IMG/VR virus record: IMGVR_UViG_3300020417_002350
Coordinates: 1 to 33,116 of that record
Reading direction: 5' to 3' (one strand)
DNA from: a virus
DNA length: 33,116 nt
The translations under genes and the position numbers were made by a program. This document shows, one piece after another, positions 2,125 through 17,318 of the stretch. The notes under the pieces are model-generated. The model ran no database searches, was not told the DNA's origin, and saw only the letters and a program-made list of their open reading frames with translations. Position 1 is the first letter of the stretch, and every line of letters starts with the position of its first letter.

Positions 2125-4836
2125 TCAAGCACCTCGCGCAGTCTTGAACGGATGTTCGGCCCATGCGAAGCCGATGTAAGTTTTGTTGTATGTGTTCAGG
2201 GCGCCAGTATTGCAGCGAACTTTGAACCCATTTGAGAGGATGTCGATCTCTCTATTTGCTCCTGAATACTCTGAGTAGTATTCATTCGGCATAAGCCACT
2301 TTTCTGCCGGGTTGTCTGGGCTACGTTCGGTGTCAAACAGGATCCAGTTTTCATACCCATCAGAACACTTAATTAGAATTACGCGTGGACGGAAGCCCAA
2401 CGCGACGAAAGGCCCGTCGGCATGGGGGTATCCACCATTGCCATTGCCGAAGTACTTAAACGAGGCAGAGTAGCCCTCAATCGGCGCCCAGCAATAGGCC
2501 ATGTGATTACTATTCGTTGAGTTGACCTCGCTGCCATAACTTAGATAAAACCCTTCATTAGTTGGAGCTGTTCCTCCCCAATAATAGAAGCTGCCTGAAT
2601 AACTATTACTGTAATTCAAATTCAGATAATCATTGGCACTGGGCAAGCCTTTGTGATAAACCGCCCAGTTCGTGTATGAATTTTCATTCTTGACGAATAT
2701 CATCTCCGGTGCTTGCCCCAAACCGTGAGGACATGGGGCCCAGGTGCCATTTCCTACATACCTAACGATTGAAAAACCTTTCGCGGGGTCCGCCTTGATT
2801 TTTGCTTGAAAGTTTGGACTTAAGTGTGTTACGCCGCCCTCGGTATTTGTATAGATCGCACCGCCCATGCCTGAATGATTGGCGCAGCTGTAGTAAATAA
2901 TTGGTGCACCCGCTGCCAGGACTAATGTTGTCTTAGCTCCTGCTTGTCCAGGGGTGCCAGTATGAGTGACGCCTGTGGTGTAGTTGGTGCCGTTAGGAGA
3001 CGTTCCAAATCGCAGCGGATGATTATTGTTGCTGCTGTCTGACTGATCGAACACATAGGTTCCGCCTTCCAGTAATGTCAGATCTGGACCGCCTTGGTTG
3101 AAGGAGTTGAATCTAAATTTGCCCCCAAAAACTGAGACGTTGTAAGTCATATTGGGAGGTTCTCCGTCATCGGCCGACCAAGTCCACGCTACATATTGGT
3201 AGCCATTTCCATTGCAATCGTTGTCGGTGCCAAGGGTGAATCCGTTTGAATTAAGTTGCCAAACCCTGTTATTTGAAGAGGTATTTGGATTCACTTGGTT
3301 TGGTTGCAGGTGAAGGCCAACACCGCGAACTGCATCGGTCAGTTGATGGTGAGTCGAGCTTGTGCGATTTTTGATCCACACTAAATCCGGCTGGTGAGGC
3401 GTAGATATACTGTGATTGGTACTGCCATTGCCTGAATAAGTCGTTGCATCTACTGCTTTTGAACCATCGGGAACTAGAGGTTCAGGCAAGTTAAAAGTAC
3501 ATAGCGACTTGTAATCAGAGGGCGGTCCACCAGTTGCGCCAGGAGGGTACACATACGGGCGTTGGCCAAAATTAACAATACCGCCTGAAAGGCCTGAGTT
3601 GATAACTGAACCGATAATTGGTGTATATCTGCCAGAAATTCCGCTATAAGCGATGCCTAAGTCTGACCCGTTTCTTGAAAAGGCTATAGTCCCGTTATCT
3701 AAATCTAATCGCACTCCAATTACATCATTATTGGAAGCATATCCACCATAAATAGAAGCGTTGCCGTTGCTCCATTTTTGATTTCTATCCATCCACCAGG
3801 TGTAACCTTGGACATATTCGCCTGGGCGTCGATAGCTTGATCTTAGATGCGCCTCTGCAGGGTGAATACCAATTCCAGTGCCATTGCCGTTGACAGTATA
3901 TTCCCAGTACCACTTTCCGCTTGAGACGGCCATAGTGCCTGCGACATTTCCCCAGCCAGAGTAGTTATTTGTAAACTCAAGATTGCCGTGCGAAAGGTCA
4001 AGGCTATTGTTTGCCAGTGGATTCAGGGTGCAGTAATTGCCTCCATTGTTACCACTCGTTGATTCATAGTTCGAAGGCGAATCAATACAACCGTGCGACG
4101 CAATGCTGCCATTTGTTGTGAAATTATTGCCCTGCCCGCTCGAGTCTATGCCAAAGCCAGAGTTTGTGGAGTTTGAAAAATCTAACTTAAATCCATTAGT
4201 GCCATGACCTGTGAATCTTTTTGGCACCCAATTATTGTAGTCATCGAGTTCTGCGAATTCAGATGCGGAAAGTGCTTGAGAGTCGACGAAATTTACCTCA
4301 GCTAAATAACCACCCAAGTAATGATGATTAGAAGCTGTGCTACGGCCAATCCAATGGGGGACGGTGTCGTTGATGGCACAAATACCATTTTGAGGACAGC
4401 TGTATGTGATGAATGACTGGGATTCACCGTTGACGTAGATTTTTATACGATCGGCTGAAGCCGCAGCTGTTGTGTCTATAGACAGCACCAGGTGATACCA
4501 AGCAGAAGGGTCCCTGAAAAGAGCCTGGGTATAAGCAGCTGCCGACATTGTGCCGCCAGCTGCGCTTGACCTAAACCAAAACTGCCTGTAAAACCCGTCC
4601 CACTCAAGAAGACATTGGCCCCTGCTAATGTTATCGCCTGCACTGAATATGGTTCGCTTTCCACTAGGGGCCAAGTCAGCCTGTTTTAGCCAGCAAGAAA
4701 AAGTGAACGTGCTTCGGTTGCCAATAACACTCGGAGTCCTGTAAAGATAGGCCGCCCAGTTTGGATTTAGCAGGAGTGAACGCTCAACAGTGTATGCAGA
4801 GCTGCCAGAAGAGCCGACAAAGAATTCGTTCAACAT
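2125..4836 (-). CDS. Large mosaic tail fibre: LamG, SPRY-like, cupredoxin-like and repeat domains
   Basis: This 903-residue protein is a probable receptor-binding fibre. Domains by reading: a concanavalin-A/LamG-like lectin at about 28-205 (TFSCWLKQADL, WYHLVLSID, IKIYVNG, YLAEVNFVDSQ); a SPRY-like domain at about 285-430 (GKWYWEYTV, GVRLDLDNGTIAFSRNG); a fibre repeat at about 445-555 (PDLVWIKNR, WTWSADDG); a cupredoxin-like insert at about 564-665; and one or two more fibre repeats to the C terminus (GQAPEMIFVKN, FRPRVILIK). The cupredoxin-like part carries a possible type 1 copper ligand set: H606, C651, H654, M657. The gene is richer in A+T than its neighbours, which suggests separate acquisition. 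Its ATG overlaps the previous gene's stop, so the two are probably translationally coupled. Fibre identity is strong; copper binding is inference. Confidence 0.88.
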   Translation of the reverse strand: MLNEFFVGSSGSSAYTVERSLLLNPNWAAYLYRTPSVIGNRSTFTFSCWLKQADLAPSGKRTIFSAGDNISRGQCLLEWDGFYRQFWFRSSAAGGTMSAAAYTQALFRDPSAWYHLVLSIDTTAAASADRIKIYVNGESQSFITYSCPQNGICAINDTVPHWIGRSTASNHHYLGGYLAEVNFVDSQALSASEFAELDDYNNWVPKRFTGHGTNGFKLDFSNSTNSGFGIDSSGQGNNFTTNGSIASHGCIDSPSNYESTSGNNGGNYCTLNPLANNSLDLSHGNLEFTNNYSGWGNVAGTMAVSSGKWYWEYTVNGNGTGIGIHPAEAHLRSSYRRPGEYVQGYTWWMDRNQKWSNGNASIYGGYASNNDVIGVRLDLDNGTIAFSRNGSDLGIAYSGISGRYTPIIGSVINSGLSGGIVNFGQRPYVYPPGATGGPPSDYKSLCTFNLPEPLVPDGSKAVDATTYSGNGSTNHSISTPHQPDLVWIKNRTSSTHHQLTDAVRGVGLHLQPNQVNPNTSSNNRVWQLNSNGFTLGTDNDCNGNGYQYVAWTWSADDGEPPNMTYNVSVFGGKFRFNSFNQGGPDLTLLEGGTYVFDQSDSSNNNHPLRFGTSPNGTNYTTGVTHTGTPGQAGAKTTLVLAAGAPIIYYSCANHSGMGGAIYTNTEGGVTHLSPNFQAKIKADPAKGFSIVRYVGNGTWAPCPHGLGQAPEMIFVKNENSYTNWAVYHKGLPSANDYLNLNYSNSYSGSFYYWGGTAPTNEGFYLSYGSEVNSTNSNHMAYCWAPIEGYSASFKYFGNGNGGYPHADGPFVALGFRPRVILIKCSDGYENWILFDTERSPDNPAEKWLMPNEYYSEYSGANREIDILSNGFKVRCNTGALNTYNKTYIGFAWAEHPFKTARGA

Positions 4837-10706: not shown

Positions 10707-10789
10707 GACACTGTTGGGAAAGTGCCGAGAGCCCCGTTCCCTGCTCTCGAGCTGTCTGCGGTAGCGGTTGCTACTGAACGTATCCAAGG

Positions 10790-10978
10790 TTACCGAGGGT
10801 AGTAACGGTTCTGATTCGGACGCTTGGAGGGCTTGACGTAGTAAGCGGTGCCCGGAACGTCCACGTAGTAGCCGTGCGAGGTGTCGTAGGGGCGGCCGTT
10901 CTCCGGGCAGTAGCGAATCGCTGCTGATGCCGGGAGCGTCGGACTCAGGGCCAGCAAGGCGAGGATCAGGCATTTCAT
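10790..10978 (-). CDS. Small secreted protein, unknown function
   Basis: The 62-residue protein starts with a clear signal peptide, MKCLILALLALSPTLPASA, with a likely AxA cleavage near residue 19. The mature part is about 43 residues, rich in Tyr and Pro (YCPENGRPYDTSHGYYVD). No family is recognised. Upstream lies a non-coding block with a TATATATA stretch and repeated sites, which could hold its promoter. It overlaps an open frame on the same strand that I regard as non-coding. Confidence 0.6.
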   Translation of the reverse strand: MKCLILALLALSPTLPASAAIRYCPENGRPYDTSHGYYVDVPGTAYYVKPSKRPNQNRYYPR

Positions 10979-11077
10979 AGAACTGCTTGATTGAACCTCC
11001 CAAACCTACCCCACATGGCTCACTCTCTTATTTCTCTCTCTAATTACTTTCTTATCTTTCTTATATATAAGAGGGAC

Positions 11078-11092
11078 TTCCCGAAACGGGAA
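11078..11092. repeat. Inverted repeat TTCCCG-AAA-CGGGAA
   Basis: This is a perfect palindrome with a 3-base centre. Its CGGGAA arm is the same core found in the direct repeats beside it (ACGGGAAGTC), so one protein could bind all four sites. Confidence 0.75.
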
Positions 11093-11099
11093 AGATCCA

Positions 11100-11160
11100 T
11101 GGACAAAACGGGAAGTCGCTTTGGACAAAACGGGAAGTCCTATGGACAAAACGGGAAGTC
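11100..11160. repeat. Three 18-bp direct repeats (iteron-like)
   Basis: The unit TGGACAAAACGGGAAGTC occurs identically at 11100, 11122 and 11143. The spacing of 22 and 21 bp places copies on the same face of the helix. Spacers differ and the two step lengths are not both multiples of three, so a coding repeat is unlikely. The array lies next to an AT-rich stretch. Confidence 0.92.
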
Positions 11161-11163
11161 ATT

Positions 11164-11183
11164 AAAAAAGCCCCCGAAGGGGC
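11164..11183 (-). terminator. Intrinsic terminator after the 113-residue gene
   Basis: On the minus strand GCCCC-TTCG-GGGGC is followed by six T: a strong stem with a stable UUCG-type loop. Confidence 0.92.
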
Positions 11184-12498: not shown

Positions 12499-12821
12499 GA
12501 CTGCGGCGCCTGGTAGCCAAACAGCTTGGGCTTAATTTTTCCGTAGCCCTGCGTGATCTCCAGCACGTCAAACCCGGCATCCCAAAGCGCGTCGAAGATG
12601 TCGGACATTTTGAAGGCACGGATGCCAGAGACAGCAATCAGGTCGTCCTGATCCAAGCCGGCGGCCGCGGCCTGCTGCTCACGCAGTGGAGATCGAGGCC
12701 AATAGCGAACTAAGTGGACATCAGAGGGAAGATCTGCGTCGAGGGCGACCAGCTCTTCATGGCTTGTGTCTTCTGCCATTAGGTGGCAGTCGTATTGAAG
12801 AAGGTGCTCGAGGAGGTTCAT
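12495..12821 (-). CDS. Unknown 108-residue protein coupled to the lyase gene
   Basis: The acidic protein begins MNLLEHLLQYDCHLMAEDTS and contains ADLPSDVHLVRYWPRSPL and AFKMSDIFDALWDAGFDVLE. It has a mixed alpha/beta pattern and no membrane segment. Its ATG overlaps the stop of the phycobiliprotein lyase gene (ATGA), so the two are probably co-translated and may act in the same process. No family is recognised; a role in pigment or photosystem management is only a guess from position. Confidence 0.68.
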   Translation of the reverse strand: MNLLEHLLQYDCHLMAEDTSHEELVALDADLPSDVHLVRYWPRSPLREQQAAAAGLDQDDLIAVSGIRAFKMSDIFDALWDAGFDVLEITQGYGKIKPKLFGYQAPQS

Positions 12822-13291
12822 GCGATTCGGATTTCGGTGTACTGGCCAGAAAGAATCAACTCGCCTCCTTTGAAGCCAATGGTCTGGCGGAGTCGAGTGT
12901 TGTTGTCGACGAAGCGGATCTCTTCTCGGAAGTACTGGCCGTCGTATTCAGTGCGGAAGACGACCGTGTCGTCGTCAATACGCTCCATGGCCTGACTGGT
13001 CTGCGCGTCGGTGAAGTAGCCAACGTTTCGCTCGAGGAGATTGCCCTTTAGTTGGATGAGCATTTCTCCAGTAGTTGGACGCTCAACCTGAGCGCCTTTG
13101 AGGTCTTTGTGCGCCCAGGATTCCCAGTTGATGCGATAAACGTCGCCGTCGACCGGCTCCATGCCGAAGTAGGTAGTGATGATCGTTTGAGCCTTGGCCT
13201 GACGCTCGGAGCCGAAGTAGATGTAGCGACGCTCGCTGCGCCACTCACCACAGGAACGCTCGATCCAGTCAAGAAAGGGTGACGGGTTCAT
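12818..13291 (-). CDS. CpeS/CpcS-type phycobiliprotein lyase (auxiliary metabolic gene)
   Basis: S-type lyases attach linear tetrapyrrole pigments to cysteines of phycobiliproteins, the cyanobacterial light-harvesting antenna. The 157-residue protein follows the family pattern: WIERSCGEWRSERRYIYF (9-26) matches the N-terminal WxSxR region; LLERNVGYF (85-93) matches the conserved LxRxxGY; and FRTEYDGQYFREEIRFVDNN (112-131) with TRLRQTIGFKGG and YTEIRI matches the final strands (ERIWF, NxRLR, SEIR). Length is slightly under the usual 170-200. I chose MNPSPFL because upstream sequence does not fit the family. It opens a four-gene minus-strand unit, divergent from a fibre cassette. I recognise the S-type over the T-type (CpeT) from these motifs; the pigment and the target protein cannot be read from sequence. 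Confidence 0.82.
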   Translation of the reverse strand: MNPSPFLDWIERSCGEWRSERRYIYFGSERQAKAQTIITTYFGMEPVDGDVYRINWESWAHKDLKGAQVERPTTGEMLIQLKGNLLERNVGYFTDAQTSQAMERIDDDTVVFRTEYDGQYFREEIRFVDNNTRLRQTIGFKGGELILSGQYTEIRIA

Positions 13292-13333
13292 CCTATTACT
13301 GTACGAACACTTACAAGTTATCGGCGAGCATTC

Positions 13334-13342
13334 GGAACCCTG
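13334..13342 (+). promoter_or_regulatory. GGAACCCTG motif upstream of fibre cassette 1
   Basis: CGGAACCCTGG on the plus strand lies 29 bases before the ATG. Here the motif follows the plus-strand genes, as it does for the two other cassettes. Confidence 0.65.
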
Positions 13343-13362
13343 GACCAGCAACGCCTCTATGG

Positions 13363-14244
13363 ATGGCCTACACCAAAACCCATCAGTCGACCATCCAAGT
13401 CTCTACGACTGCATCCAGCGAAGAACTTAGTGGATACAATCAAGCCTTTAGAGAGATTCTCAGTACCTGGCTTCCAACTCGGGGCTGGGCTGTTACCGAG
13501 CACTCCAACAATTCAGACAGCGGCATAAACAATCACTTCCATTGCTCAAAAGACATCCAATGCGTGGGTGGAACGACCCAAACATTGAGTTTTGGGCTGC
13601 ATATACACAATGACCAAAGCCACGTTGACTGGACTTGGTACAACGGCAGCAACAATATGTATAGCGACGTCGGCGGAGTCGCGTTCCCAGCGGGAAATTT
13701 CTTTTTAAGCGAAAACAGCATTTACATCGACGGCGTTTTTGAGATGTGGTCGCACGATACAGACCCTGACTCGTTTGTCCTCATTGTCCGAGGTAACACC
13801 AATTTCCGGCTGCTTGGCTTTATGCCGCCTGCTGGCAGTCTGTTTCGGGCAGACTTAGAAACCAACGACACATACGCTCCCTGGAGCATGTGCATGTTGC
13901 CATTGTTTAAGGACAACCCAGCATTCGCGAATGCAACTCCTCTCGCGACGACTGCTTGGGTTGGTGACTTTCAAGACCTAAGGCGGACAAGTGACTCTCT
14001 CCCCTTTGTGATTCACAACTACGGAGTTCTGGGCATGACCGATGGCGACGCGCAATTCGCTCTGATCAACGACCCCGACGTGTCGACGCTGCTTGCTCAG
14101 GACAAAGCACACGCTCAACTTCAGGGTCGCGCCGATCAGGTCCATTCGGTGCAGATTGGCGCTAACTACTACATCGCGTTAGGCCTGCCATCAACCAGGG
14201 CTCGGCTTCTGCTTAACACTGGCACTGTGAACCTGGAGGACTGA
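13363..14244 (+). CDS. Putative receptor-binding/fibre protein, cassette 1
   Basis: The 293-residue protein begins MAYTKTHQSTIQVSTTASSE. It shares phrases with two other plus-strand proteins in the window: LPTRGWAVTEHSN (others: LPSRGWTTHV, LPSRGWTVTK), then FEMWSHDTDPDSFVLIVRGN and LGFMPPAGS (cassette 2: WEMWTSDQDTDSFLIVAKGN, IAYMPPTGS), and the C-terminal VQIGANYYIALGLPSTRARL / LLNTG. It is a soluble, beta-rich protein with no signal peptide, consistent with a virion tip protein. Upstream in-frame residues do not match the paralogues, so I start at MAYTK. Its stop overlaps the next ATG (TGATGG). The fibre role is inferred from composition and context. Confidence 0.78.
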   Translation: MAYTKTHQSTIQVSTTASSEELSGYNQAFREILSTWLPTRGWAVTEHSNNSDSGINNHFHCSKDIQCVGGTTQTLSFGLHIHNDQSHVDWTWYNGSNNMYSDVGGVAFPAGNFFLSENSIYIDGVFEMWSHDTDPDSFVLIVRGNTNFRLLGFMPPAGSLFRADLETNDTYAPWSMCMLPLFKDNPAFANATPLATTAWVGDFQDLRRTSDSLPFVIHNYGVLGMTDGDAQFALINDPDVSTLLAQDKAHAQLQGRADQVHSVQIGANYYIALGLPSTRARLLLNTGTVNLED

Positions 14245-15334: not shown

Positions 15335-16186
15335 ATGACCTGGTCCAAGGTTTACACCTCAACCGTGCCCGTTAATGATTTCGACTCTGATGGAGGGACG
15401 TCGCTACTCGGAACTCTCGACGAATTCTTCGACACGTGGTTGCCGTCTCGTGGCTGGACGACTCACGTGGGGGTAAGTCGGCCAAGCAATGTGACTGGCT
15501 ACTACCACTGGTGGATGGATAAGGCGATCCAGTGCCTCGACGGCAGCTACTACAACCACCGGGTCGAGTTCGTCCTTGACCCAAGCACAGCCGAAAACTT
15601 TGGCTGGAAAACCTGGGCCTCTGGCGTTGCAGCCGACACTTCCCATAACAACCCCGCCATAACCAGCAATGCACTAACCGTGGCAATCGAGGGCTCTTGG
15701 GAGATGTGGACCTCTGATCAAGACACCGATTCGTTTTTGATTGTCGCCAAGGGCAACCCTCGAACCCTGATCGCCTACATGCCGCCAACGGGGTCAATCA
15801 TCAAAAACCGAGGCAACGGGACCACCCAGCCAATGAAGGTCATGCCTTGCATCCCAAGTGATGGCGCATCAGCGGGCAACTGGCACAGCAACGCCAGTCG
15901 TTATGGTCATCACCCAGCAATCAGGCCTTACAGCCCCTCCTCGATCAACCATCTGGGCCAGGTCATCAAGTTCAACGCTCAGTTCTGCAACGTTGGAACA
16001 GGGACGACCATGGAGCCTGGATTCGTGACGTCGACCAACGATTGCGCCATGCTTTACCAGGCCGAAGACGTCGACGAGTTGGACAACATCGGCACGCTGC
16101 AGGTTGGCACCGAGTACTTCATCCGAGTCGGTCTCAGCGGCAGCGCCCTGCTGTTCAGCACTGGAACAACTGACCCAGGCTACTGA
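15335..16186 (+). CDS. Putative receptor-binding/fibre protein, cassette 2
   Basis: The 283-residue protein begins MTWSKVYTSTVPVNDFDSDG. Shared phrases with cassette 1 include FFDTWLPSRGWTTHV, DKAIQCLDGSYYNHR, WEMWTSDQDTDSFLIVAKGN and IAYMPPTGSI; with cassette 3 it shares the MTWS start and the SRGWT phrase. The C-terminal IGTLQVGTEYFIRVGL and LLFSTGTTD match the ends of both paralogues. It has no signal peptide or membrane segment. Its TGA overlaps the companion's ATG. The fibre role is inferred from the duplication pattern and beta-rich composition; no catalytic motif is visible. Confidence 0.78.
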   Translation: MTWSKVYTSTVPVNDFDSDGGTSLLGTLDEFFDTWLPSRGWTTHVGVSRPSNVTGYYHWWMDKAIQCLDGSYYNHRVEFVLDPSTAENFGWKTWASGVAADTSHNNPAITSNALTVAIEGSWEMWTSDQDTDSFLIVAKGNPRTLIAYMPPTGSIIKNRGNGTTQPMKVMPCIPSDGASAGNWHSNASRYGHHPAIRPYSPSSINHLGQVIKFNAQFCNVGTGTTMEPGFVTSTNDCAMLYQAEDVDELDNIGTLQVGTEYFIRVGLSGSALLFSTGTTDPGY

Positions 16187-16481: not shown

Positions 16482-16502
16482 GGGCACTGTCGAGTGTCCT
16501 TC

Positions 16503-17318
16503 ATGACTTGGTCCATAGCTCATCAGGCGAATTTCGACCTCTCTGGCGCGAATGGATACAGCGCCGCGCATGACTACCACTTCCTGACCTTCCTGCCATC
16601 GAGGGGGTGGACGGTAACCAAGGGACAGCCGACGAACGGCAGCCTGCCAACCACTAACAACGCGATCTATCAGTGCAGCAAAACCTTCACGCTGCCTGAC
16701 GCAACAACAACTACCAAGCACTGGGTCTATCACCTCCGATTCGATTTCGGCATTGTGGAGACCTACTCATGGGACAACGTTGACTTCGGTACTTCTGCGG
16801 TAACTCTGAGGTCAGAGAGCAATGTGATGTCCGTATTAGGCGGCCAAGGCAACAACACTGAATTCACGTGGTTGGCTTCTGATGAACATCAAGATGCTTG
16901 GATTATGCTGAGCGCTGACAACACTTACGTCGGCGGCGCAAGCATTCCTGTCGACGGGTGGCTGCATAACGGATACGACAATTTATACCCTGGATTGATC
17001 GCAAACAGCAACGGATATTTTTGCATAAAAGACGCAAGTTCTGGGTATTTTGGGTTCATAGGGAACACCGTAGTCAACAGTTACCTGATGACAAATACCT
17101 TCTTTTATGCCACAGCAAACACTGCCGGCAATTACTCATACAACACACTAAATGATTTTTATTTGCGGATGAATGGAACACAAATCAGCACTACAGCCAT
17201 GAGCGCCACTGGGCCGGCCTCTGTACTGATCGACGGGCGCTACTACCTCGACCTCCGTCCGAACAGCAACACCTCATTGATGCTCGACACCGATCAGACT
17301 GATCTAGGTGTTCTCTGA
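16503..17318 (+). CDS. Putative receptor-binding/fibre protein, cassette 3
   Basis: The 271-residue protein begins MTWSIAHQANFDLSGANGYS. An upstream GTG would add three residues, but MTWS matches cassette 2, so the ATG is chosen. Shared features are FLPSRGWTVTKG, a central FTWLASDEHQDAWIMLSADN at the place of the MW..D.DSF segment, and the C-terminal VLIDGRYYLDLRPNSNTSLM. It is the most diverged of the three paralogues, and its second half is richer in A+T than the surroundings (about 16980-17160). It ends with a TGATGG overlap to its companion. It is a probable fibre or receptor-binding protein. Confidence 0.76.
   Translation: MTWSIAHQANFDLSGANGYSAAHDYHFLTFLPSRGWTVTKGQPTNGSLPTTNNAIYQCSKTFTLPDATTTTKHWVYHLRFDFGIVETYSWDNVDFGTSAVTLRSESNVMSVLGGQGNNTEFTWLASDEHQDAWIMLSADNTYVGGASIPVDGWLHNGYDNLYPGLIANSNGYFCIKDASSGYFGFIGNTVVNSYLMTNTFFYATANTAGNYSYNTLNDFYLRMNGTQISTTAMSATGPASVLIDGRYYLDLRPNSNTSLMLDTDQTDLGVL

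Follow-up and report, generated by a model that had tools for sequence, protein, structure and literature searches.

In phage SPP1 a single initiator, gp38, binds two sites: oriL, which lies within the initiator gene itself, and oriR, a noncoding site of the late region next to moron genes (PMC6316719, PMC3485210). At oriR the bound initiator is thought to stall replication forks and to trigger the switch to concatemers (PMC6316719, PMC3485210). The origin of phage lambda has iterons that lie 20, 24 and 23 bp apart and are followed by ACACTATTACAAAAGAAAAAAGAAAAG, two of them with a centre (CAAAACG) that recurs in the iterons described below. Iteron plasmids can use additional arrays, placed away from the origin, for copy-number control. 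Two matching, distant arrays in one genome are known from few phages and, as far as we found, have apparently not been described in cyanobacterial siphoviruses. For this cyanophage group no report of a replication origin was found in the open literature (most subscription papers lay outside the scope), and a direct search of the papers on P-SS2 and S-LBS1 likewise turned up no origin.

Here we describe a repeat array in a fragment of a cyanobacterial siphovirus, an IMG/VR virus record whose 33,116 bases are referred to as the window. Judged from sequence comparison, and with a probability of roughly 0.75, the array is an initiator-binding, origin-type module, the oriR-like member (B) of two that these cyanosiphoviruses carry, its partner (A) being found at the replication genes. 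By analogy, its build is that of a lambda-type origin and the two-array plan is that of SPP1. The portal protein of the window is 46-49% identical to the portals of cyanophages P-SS2, S-CRES1-3 and S-CBS2, and the window also encodes ribonucleotide reductase and a CpeS-like phycobiliprotein lyase.

As originally predicted, an 18-mer, TGGACAAAACGGGAAGTC, is present in three exact copies on the plus strand, beginning at 11100, 11122 and 11143, so that their starts are 22 and 21 bp apart (Table 1). No further copy occurs elsewhere in the window with up to three mismatches allowed, and none of 100 dinucleotide shuffles contained three matches (shuffle mean, 0.02). The palindrome noticed beside the repeats, TTCCCGAAACGGGAA at 11078-11092, is perfect, with 6-bp arms flanking AAA, and is separated from the first 18-mer by 7 bases rather than the 8 first counted. 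Since its ACGGGAA lies 22 bp ahead of the ACGGGAA of the first repeat, the palindrome is a fourth, degenerate copy in register, giving four sites of the CTTCCCGTTTTGTCC type with a spacing of 22/22/21 bp. Tandem dyad iterons of about 18 bp placed two helical turns apart, as in origins of the lambda/O type, are thus found here, and a scan of the whole window for tandem periods of 18-26 bp returned no array other than the one at 11078-11160. Read on the minus strand, a terminator-like hairpin is followed by the four sites, TCTTATATATAAGA, a purine-rich AT tract, the promoter-like TGGGGTAGGTT and a gene for a 62-aa secreted protein.

The AT-rich, pyrimidine-biased block reported next to the repeats is equally real. 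It holds TTATATATAA at 11061-11070, within TCTTATATATAAGA (11059-11072), and the AT-richest 40-mer of the entire window, which starts at 11028 and has 8 G+C in 40 (0.012% of 40-mers are as low); an AT-rich tract adjoining the array is a further trait of lambda/O-type origins. The promoter-like heptamer TGGGGTA occurs three times in the window, each time 35-44 nt ahead of a start codon. It also precedes several genes of the relative G001 at a similar distance and seems to be this phage group's extended -10 promoter. Another promoter-like element, in which TAGAAC comes 17 nt after TTGCACGTGTTGACA, is repeated on the minus strand at 11594-11551, 12104-12062 and 26907-26862, ahead of small genes; two of its copies also contain TGGGGTATCTCGGT, and related copies are present in G001.

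Table 1. Elements of the array module and its immediate flanks (positions in the window)
Feature	Position	Strand	Remarks
Iteron 1 (distal)	11143..11160	-	GACTTCCCGTTTTGTCCA on minus strand; exact copy
Iteron 2	11122..11139	-	exact copy
Iteron 3	11100..11117	-	exact copy
Iteron 4, degenerate, palindromic	11078..11095	-	CTTTCCCGTTTCGGGAA; adjoins AT tract; in register, 22 bp from iteron 3
Iteron/AT junction GTCCCTCTTATATATAAG	11060..11077	-	CTnTATATAT kind, recurrent among compared arrays
AT-rich tract, candidate DNA unwinding element	11020..11072	-	purine-rich on minus strand, pyrimidine-rich on plus strand
Terminator-like hairpin and T run of preceding minus-strand gene	11165..11183	-	bounds the module
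Promoter-like TGGGGTAGGTT of secreted-protein gene	11003..11013	-	between AT tract and gene, apart from the module
Gene for 62-aa secreted protein, ATG at 10978	10790..10978	-	translation; module does not need the gene

The nearest relative, G001 (IMG/VR, 74.7 kb), has a portal that is 86% identical and shares much of the gene order of the window. At the place equivalent to the window array it has four palindromes of the ATGGACGTTTTGTCCAT type, 21-22 bp apart, along with an AT tract that resembles the window's in being purine-rich, a glutamine-II riboswitch and the gene for the secreted protein. The iteron letters are partly kept between the two (CGTTTTGTCC). An exact 16-mer search of IMG/VR yielded 16 single-copy matches, about the chance rate, and a search with the pattern GTCCAYTTWCACTTATAT returned G001 once more and otherwise chance matches; single-sequence scans with the two proteins flanking the window array brought up no relatives. 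When the repeats were sought among relatives, it was the array module that proved to be present, not tied to the secreted-protein gene; on comparison of the sequences the module is conserved and the exact iteron letters are not.

Four more sites of this kind make up another array in G001, at 65.14-65.22 kb, which lies 5' of a gene for a 288-aa protein and a DnaB-like helicase gene. The 288-aa protein has no family match and aligns weakly to other replication proteins. Paired arrays are likewise found in isolated phages. S-CRES1 has six sites (3233-3357) upstream of a gene annotated 'DNA replication protein' and eight more at 31.50-31.66 kb, and S-CRES3 has arrays of three and four sites that differ in sequence from those of S-CRES1. 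In P-SS2 one array lies inside gp107, upstream of dnaB, the other follows cobO, and nearly the same AT element comes after both. A profile built from the replication proteins of S-CRES1, S-CRES3 and S-CBS2 led to 14 loci in IMG/VR, equivalent to eight independent ones once near-identical loci (e.g. L076-L079) were counted a single time and S-CBS2's own record was excluded. In all eight, the replication-protein gene is immediately preceded by repeated sites with an AT tract, each locus having an iteron sequence of its own (the A arrays of L073, L076 and L081 were read by eye). Together with G001, S-CRES1, S-CRES3, S-CBS2 and P-SS2, this places array A at or in the replication-protein gene, near DnaB helicase, in all 13 of the independent genomes.

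In six diverged cyanosiphoviruses (G001, S-CRES1, S-CRES3, P-SS2 and the IMG/VR contigs G013 and G014) the two arrays of a genome match each other much better than they match those of other phages. When the A region was queried against the rest of its own genome, the top-scoring segment was the B array in each of the six, at 20-66, the runner-up segment reaching 4-7; the B array of G013 had first surfaced in a plain search with the A iteron of that genome. In several genomes the A-query score does not exceed the highest of 25 random control regions (e.g. 61 in P-SS2), and these controls may include repetitive genes or the arrays themselves. In lambda, used as a negative control, the ori gave weak matches elsewhere in the genome. 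Comparison of every A with every B produced a mostly diagonal matrix, in which the largest off-diagonal values are those of G001 A with window B (16, the nearest relative), S-CRES1 A with G013 B (10) and G001 A with S-CRES1 B (5); G014's own A/B value is low (4). Such resemblance between the two arrays of one phage is what would be expected if one protein reads both, and we infer from the sequences that this protein is the neighbouring replication protein. No B array was found in the complete genome of S-CBS2 or in the fragments G012 and G015-G018. The window shows one array only because it is a fragment; from its relatives, its A array and initiator would lie beyond the 33 kb.

Despite their differing iterons, 17 of 20 arrays by our count pass into a junction of the CTnTATATAT type (CT(C)(T)(T)ATAT), a motif with a background of about 0.3% of positions in the compared genomes when sought within 20 nt downstream; the 20 arrays are not 20 independent events, because they come from related phages. 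The AT tracts at the arrays rank among the AT-richest 40-mers of their genomes. A second common stretch, approximately CCAATAC(C)ACGCGCA, is found past the AT tract at S-CRES1 A, G012 A and both arrays of G014, and was not seen in the window or G001.

Array B has a constant genomic setting. In all seven genomes that have it (six relatives and the window) it lies between accessory and virion genes, following the portal and an accessory block and preceding virion genes where the contig continues. The accessory block ahead of B includes the CpeS-like gene in the window, S-CRES1, S-CRES3, G013 and G014. In the window this gene occupies 12818-13255 on the minus strand (Pfam PF09367, 7.9e-13), and in S-CRES1 and S-CRES3 it is annotated upstream of the B array. 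Plus-strand genes at 13279-14244, 15335-16186 and 16494-17318 break up the minus-strand operon of the window; their products look related, with the common N-terminal pattern WxxxxT...FLPSRGW..., and the protein of 13279-14244 has no PHROG match. A glutamine-II riboswitch aptamer (RF01704, 45.3 bits) at 10725-10783 on the minus strand directly precedes a short ORF of the same strand (10539 to about 10706) in which the YRG motif occurs twice. The riboswitch is also present in G001, S-CRES1, S-CRES3 and G014, and in the last three it sits away from B.

The replication proteins encoded at A are candidate initiators, annotated as hypothetical or merely as 'DNA replication protein'. They have a mean identity of 48% in the C-terminal half versus 24% in the N-terminal part. 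A Mantel test of initiator (N-terminal) against iteron divergence was not significant, which weighs against the initiator-binding reading. A structure model of the L073 protein (mean pLDDT 72, pTM 0.43) predicts a winged helix at the N terminus, joined by a disordered linker to a C-terminal part that is largely helical. In a fold search it matched viral proteins, several of them named replication initiators, at E values of about 1e-4, and its two best matches were F4YCN8 (359 aa) and C7F4F3 (305 aa), which by their equal lengths would be S-CBS2 gp57 and P-SS2 gp107. A search of PDB folds gave nothing at E 0.001 and mostly unrelated or generic winged-helix matches. PHROG matches of the replication proteins are weak but consistent (O-like, 0.0018; DnaD-like helicase loader, 2.4e-7), and Pfam gave only weak HTH matches, with no match to a plasmid Rep family among the initiators scanned. 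In three unrelated IMG/VR phages (L037, L040 and L049), GGACAAAACGTCC-like arrays were located within replication-initiation genes of the O-like or HTH_36 type and read in frame as peptide repeats such as DKTSEPK; they were found with a pattern built from the present iterons, so that the letters in common are built in and the location is not.

The module might work as follows. Four iterons of about 18 bp on one helical face, beside an AT-rich unwinding element, would form an initiator-binding module. The phage's winged-helix replication protein, encoded at A near the DnaB helicase gene, would bind the iterons of both A and B, and binding would melt the AT tract and lead to helicase loading. 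B could then serve as another point of initiation, or else as a stall site of the kind proposed for SPP1 oriR, at which bound initiator would halt a fork and aid the switch to concatemers for packaging. The original prediction of an origin with iterons and an unwinding element is well supported by the anatomy and by the relatives. Lambda/O-type origins lie at or in the initiator gene beside helicase genes, as A does in the 13 relatives; the neighbours of the window array are an accessory gene and the secreted-protein gene. Because the partner, and not the window array, is at the replication genes, B may act as a further origin, or its role may be one of control or of stalling forks.

The strongest rival, less probable in our estimate but a serious contender, is that B is bound by the initiator and yet is not an active origin, either titrating or handcuffing the initiator or acting as a fork barrier only, so that A alone starts replication. 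A alone sits at the replication genes, and fork stalling is the published model for SPP1 oriR (PMC3485210). Moreover, lambda replication is blocked by extra copies of lambda ori in trans (PMC4488673), so two equal origins need explaining, and how a phage lives with two becomes a real and now testable question. Against a pure titration site, B retains the full AT tract and junction besides its iterons, which would be superfluous there, and forks setting out from B would be consistent with the GC skew of S-CRES1 and S-CRES3. In these two genomes a model with two bidirectional origins fits best when the origins are near A and B, and the actual pair is within the best 1-3% of all origin pairs; the fit was not seen in P-SS2. 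The skew drops in the middle of the A-to-B arc in S-CRES1, S-CRES3, G013 and G014, which is suggestive only, as P-SS2 and G001 are without this step, the four genomes have their gene order in common and the step falls near the same genes; it may reflect gene content. Cumulative skew, proposed at the outset as a check on the origin, is thus uninformative in a 33-kb fragment and mixed in the complete relatives.

A bolder extension of the initiator-binding reading is that cyanobacterial siphoviruses widely follow a strategy of two origins and one fast-evolving initiator, with the arrays co-evolving in register and the forks from A and B meeting midway. The skew of S-CRES1 and S-CRES3 would suggest such a meeting of forks; as a whole we regard the proposal as rather doubtful.

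It is improbable that a phage repressor or activator uses the arrays as operators, in the way of OL and OR of lambda, with the AT tracts serving as strong promoters. In OL/OR, too, palindromes of about 17 bp stand in tandem at two places, a promoter-like element and a gene come after B in the window and G001, and a 53-aa HTH ORF adjoining the A array of G001 keeps the idea alive there. The neighbour, however, is a replication-protein gene in all 13 genomes, with no repressor recognised by annotation or position; the A array of P-SS2 is within a coding sequence and the B array of S-CRES3 is between convergent annotated genes. The tracts are also longer and more AT-rich than a promoter needs, and the promoter-like element of the secreted-protein gene stands outside the tract. 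The alternative offered by the original prediction, an operator of several sites serving only the secreted-protein gene at 10978, is largely refuted and was rejected as very improbable: in the window, and likewise in G001, the only compared genome with a homologue, the array immediately precedes that gene, but S-CRES1, S-CRES3, P-SS2, G013 and G014 all keep B with no convincing homologue, G001 has a matching array at its replication genes, and the riboswitch sites and the S-CRES3 B and P-SS2 A placements likewise argue against an operator of one gene.

An initiator-binding, origin-type module would thus have likenesses to several known systems. Lambda OL/OR resemble the arrays in having two loci where palindromes of about 17 bp are set in tandem, but no repressor gene was recognised at the cyanosiphovirus arrays, which have long AT tracts and lie in a replication gene or between convergent genes. 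Like the origins of iteron plasmids of the Rep type, the arrays are made up of sites repeated in tandem every two helical turns or so, with an AT-rich region alongside; unlike those plasmids, these are siphoviruses with a DnaB-type helicase gene near an array and with initiators that match no plasmid Rep family. The lambda ori has the same build, with four 18-bp dyad iterons 20-24 bp apart and then an AT-rich, purine-rich tract, but lambda has a single origin, inside gene O. The plan as a whole is nearest to oriL and oriR of SPP1 as published: two distant sites of direct repeats with an AT-rich unwinding element at both, present as same-repeat arrays in six relatives, one at the initiator gene (inside it in SPP1 and P-SS2) near a DnaB-type helicase gene, and the other in a noncoding stretch of the late region, next to accessory genes. 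The S-CRES1 copy of this second array overlaps two short annotated ORFs of doubtful look. In contrast to SPP1, where the sites are about 12-13 kb apart, the arrays of the cyanosiphoviruses are 18-38 kb apart along the portal-containing arc, A is beside the initiator gene except in P-SS2, the iteron sequence differs between phages, and initiator binding is a prediction. The paired, co-varying arrays provide exact test sites in the isolated phages P-SS2, S-CRES1 and S-CRES3 and single out the likely initiator. They also suggest that phages well beyond those of Bacillus follow the SPP1 plan, where a second site bound by the initiator may control the change to concatemers for packaging.
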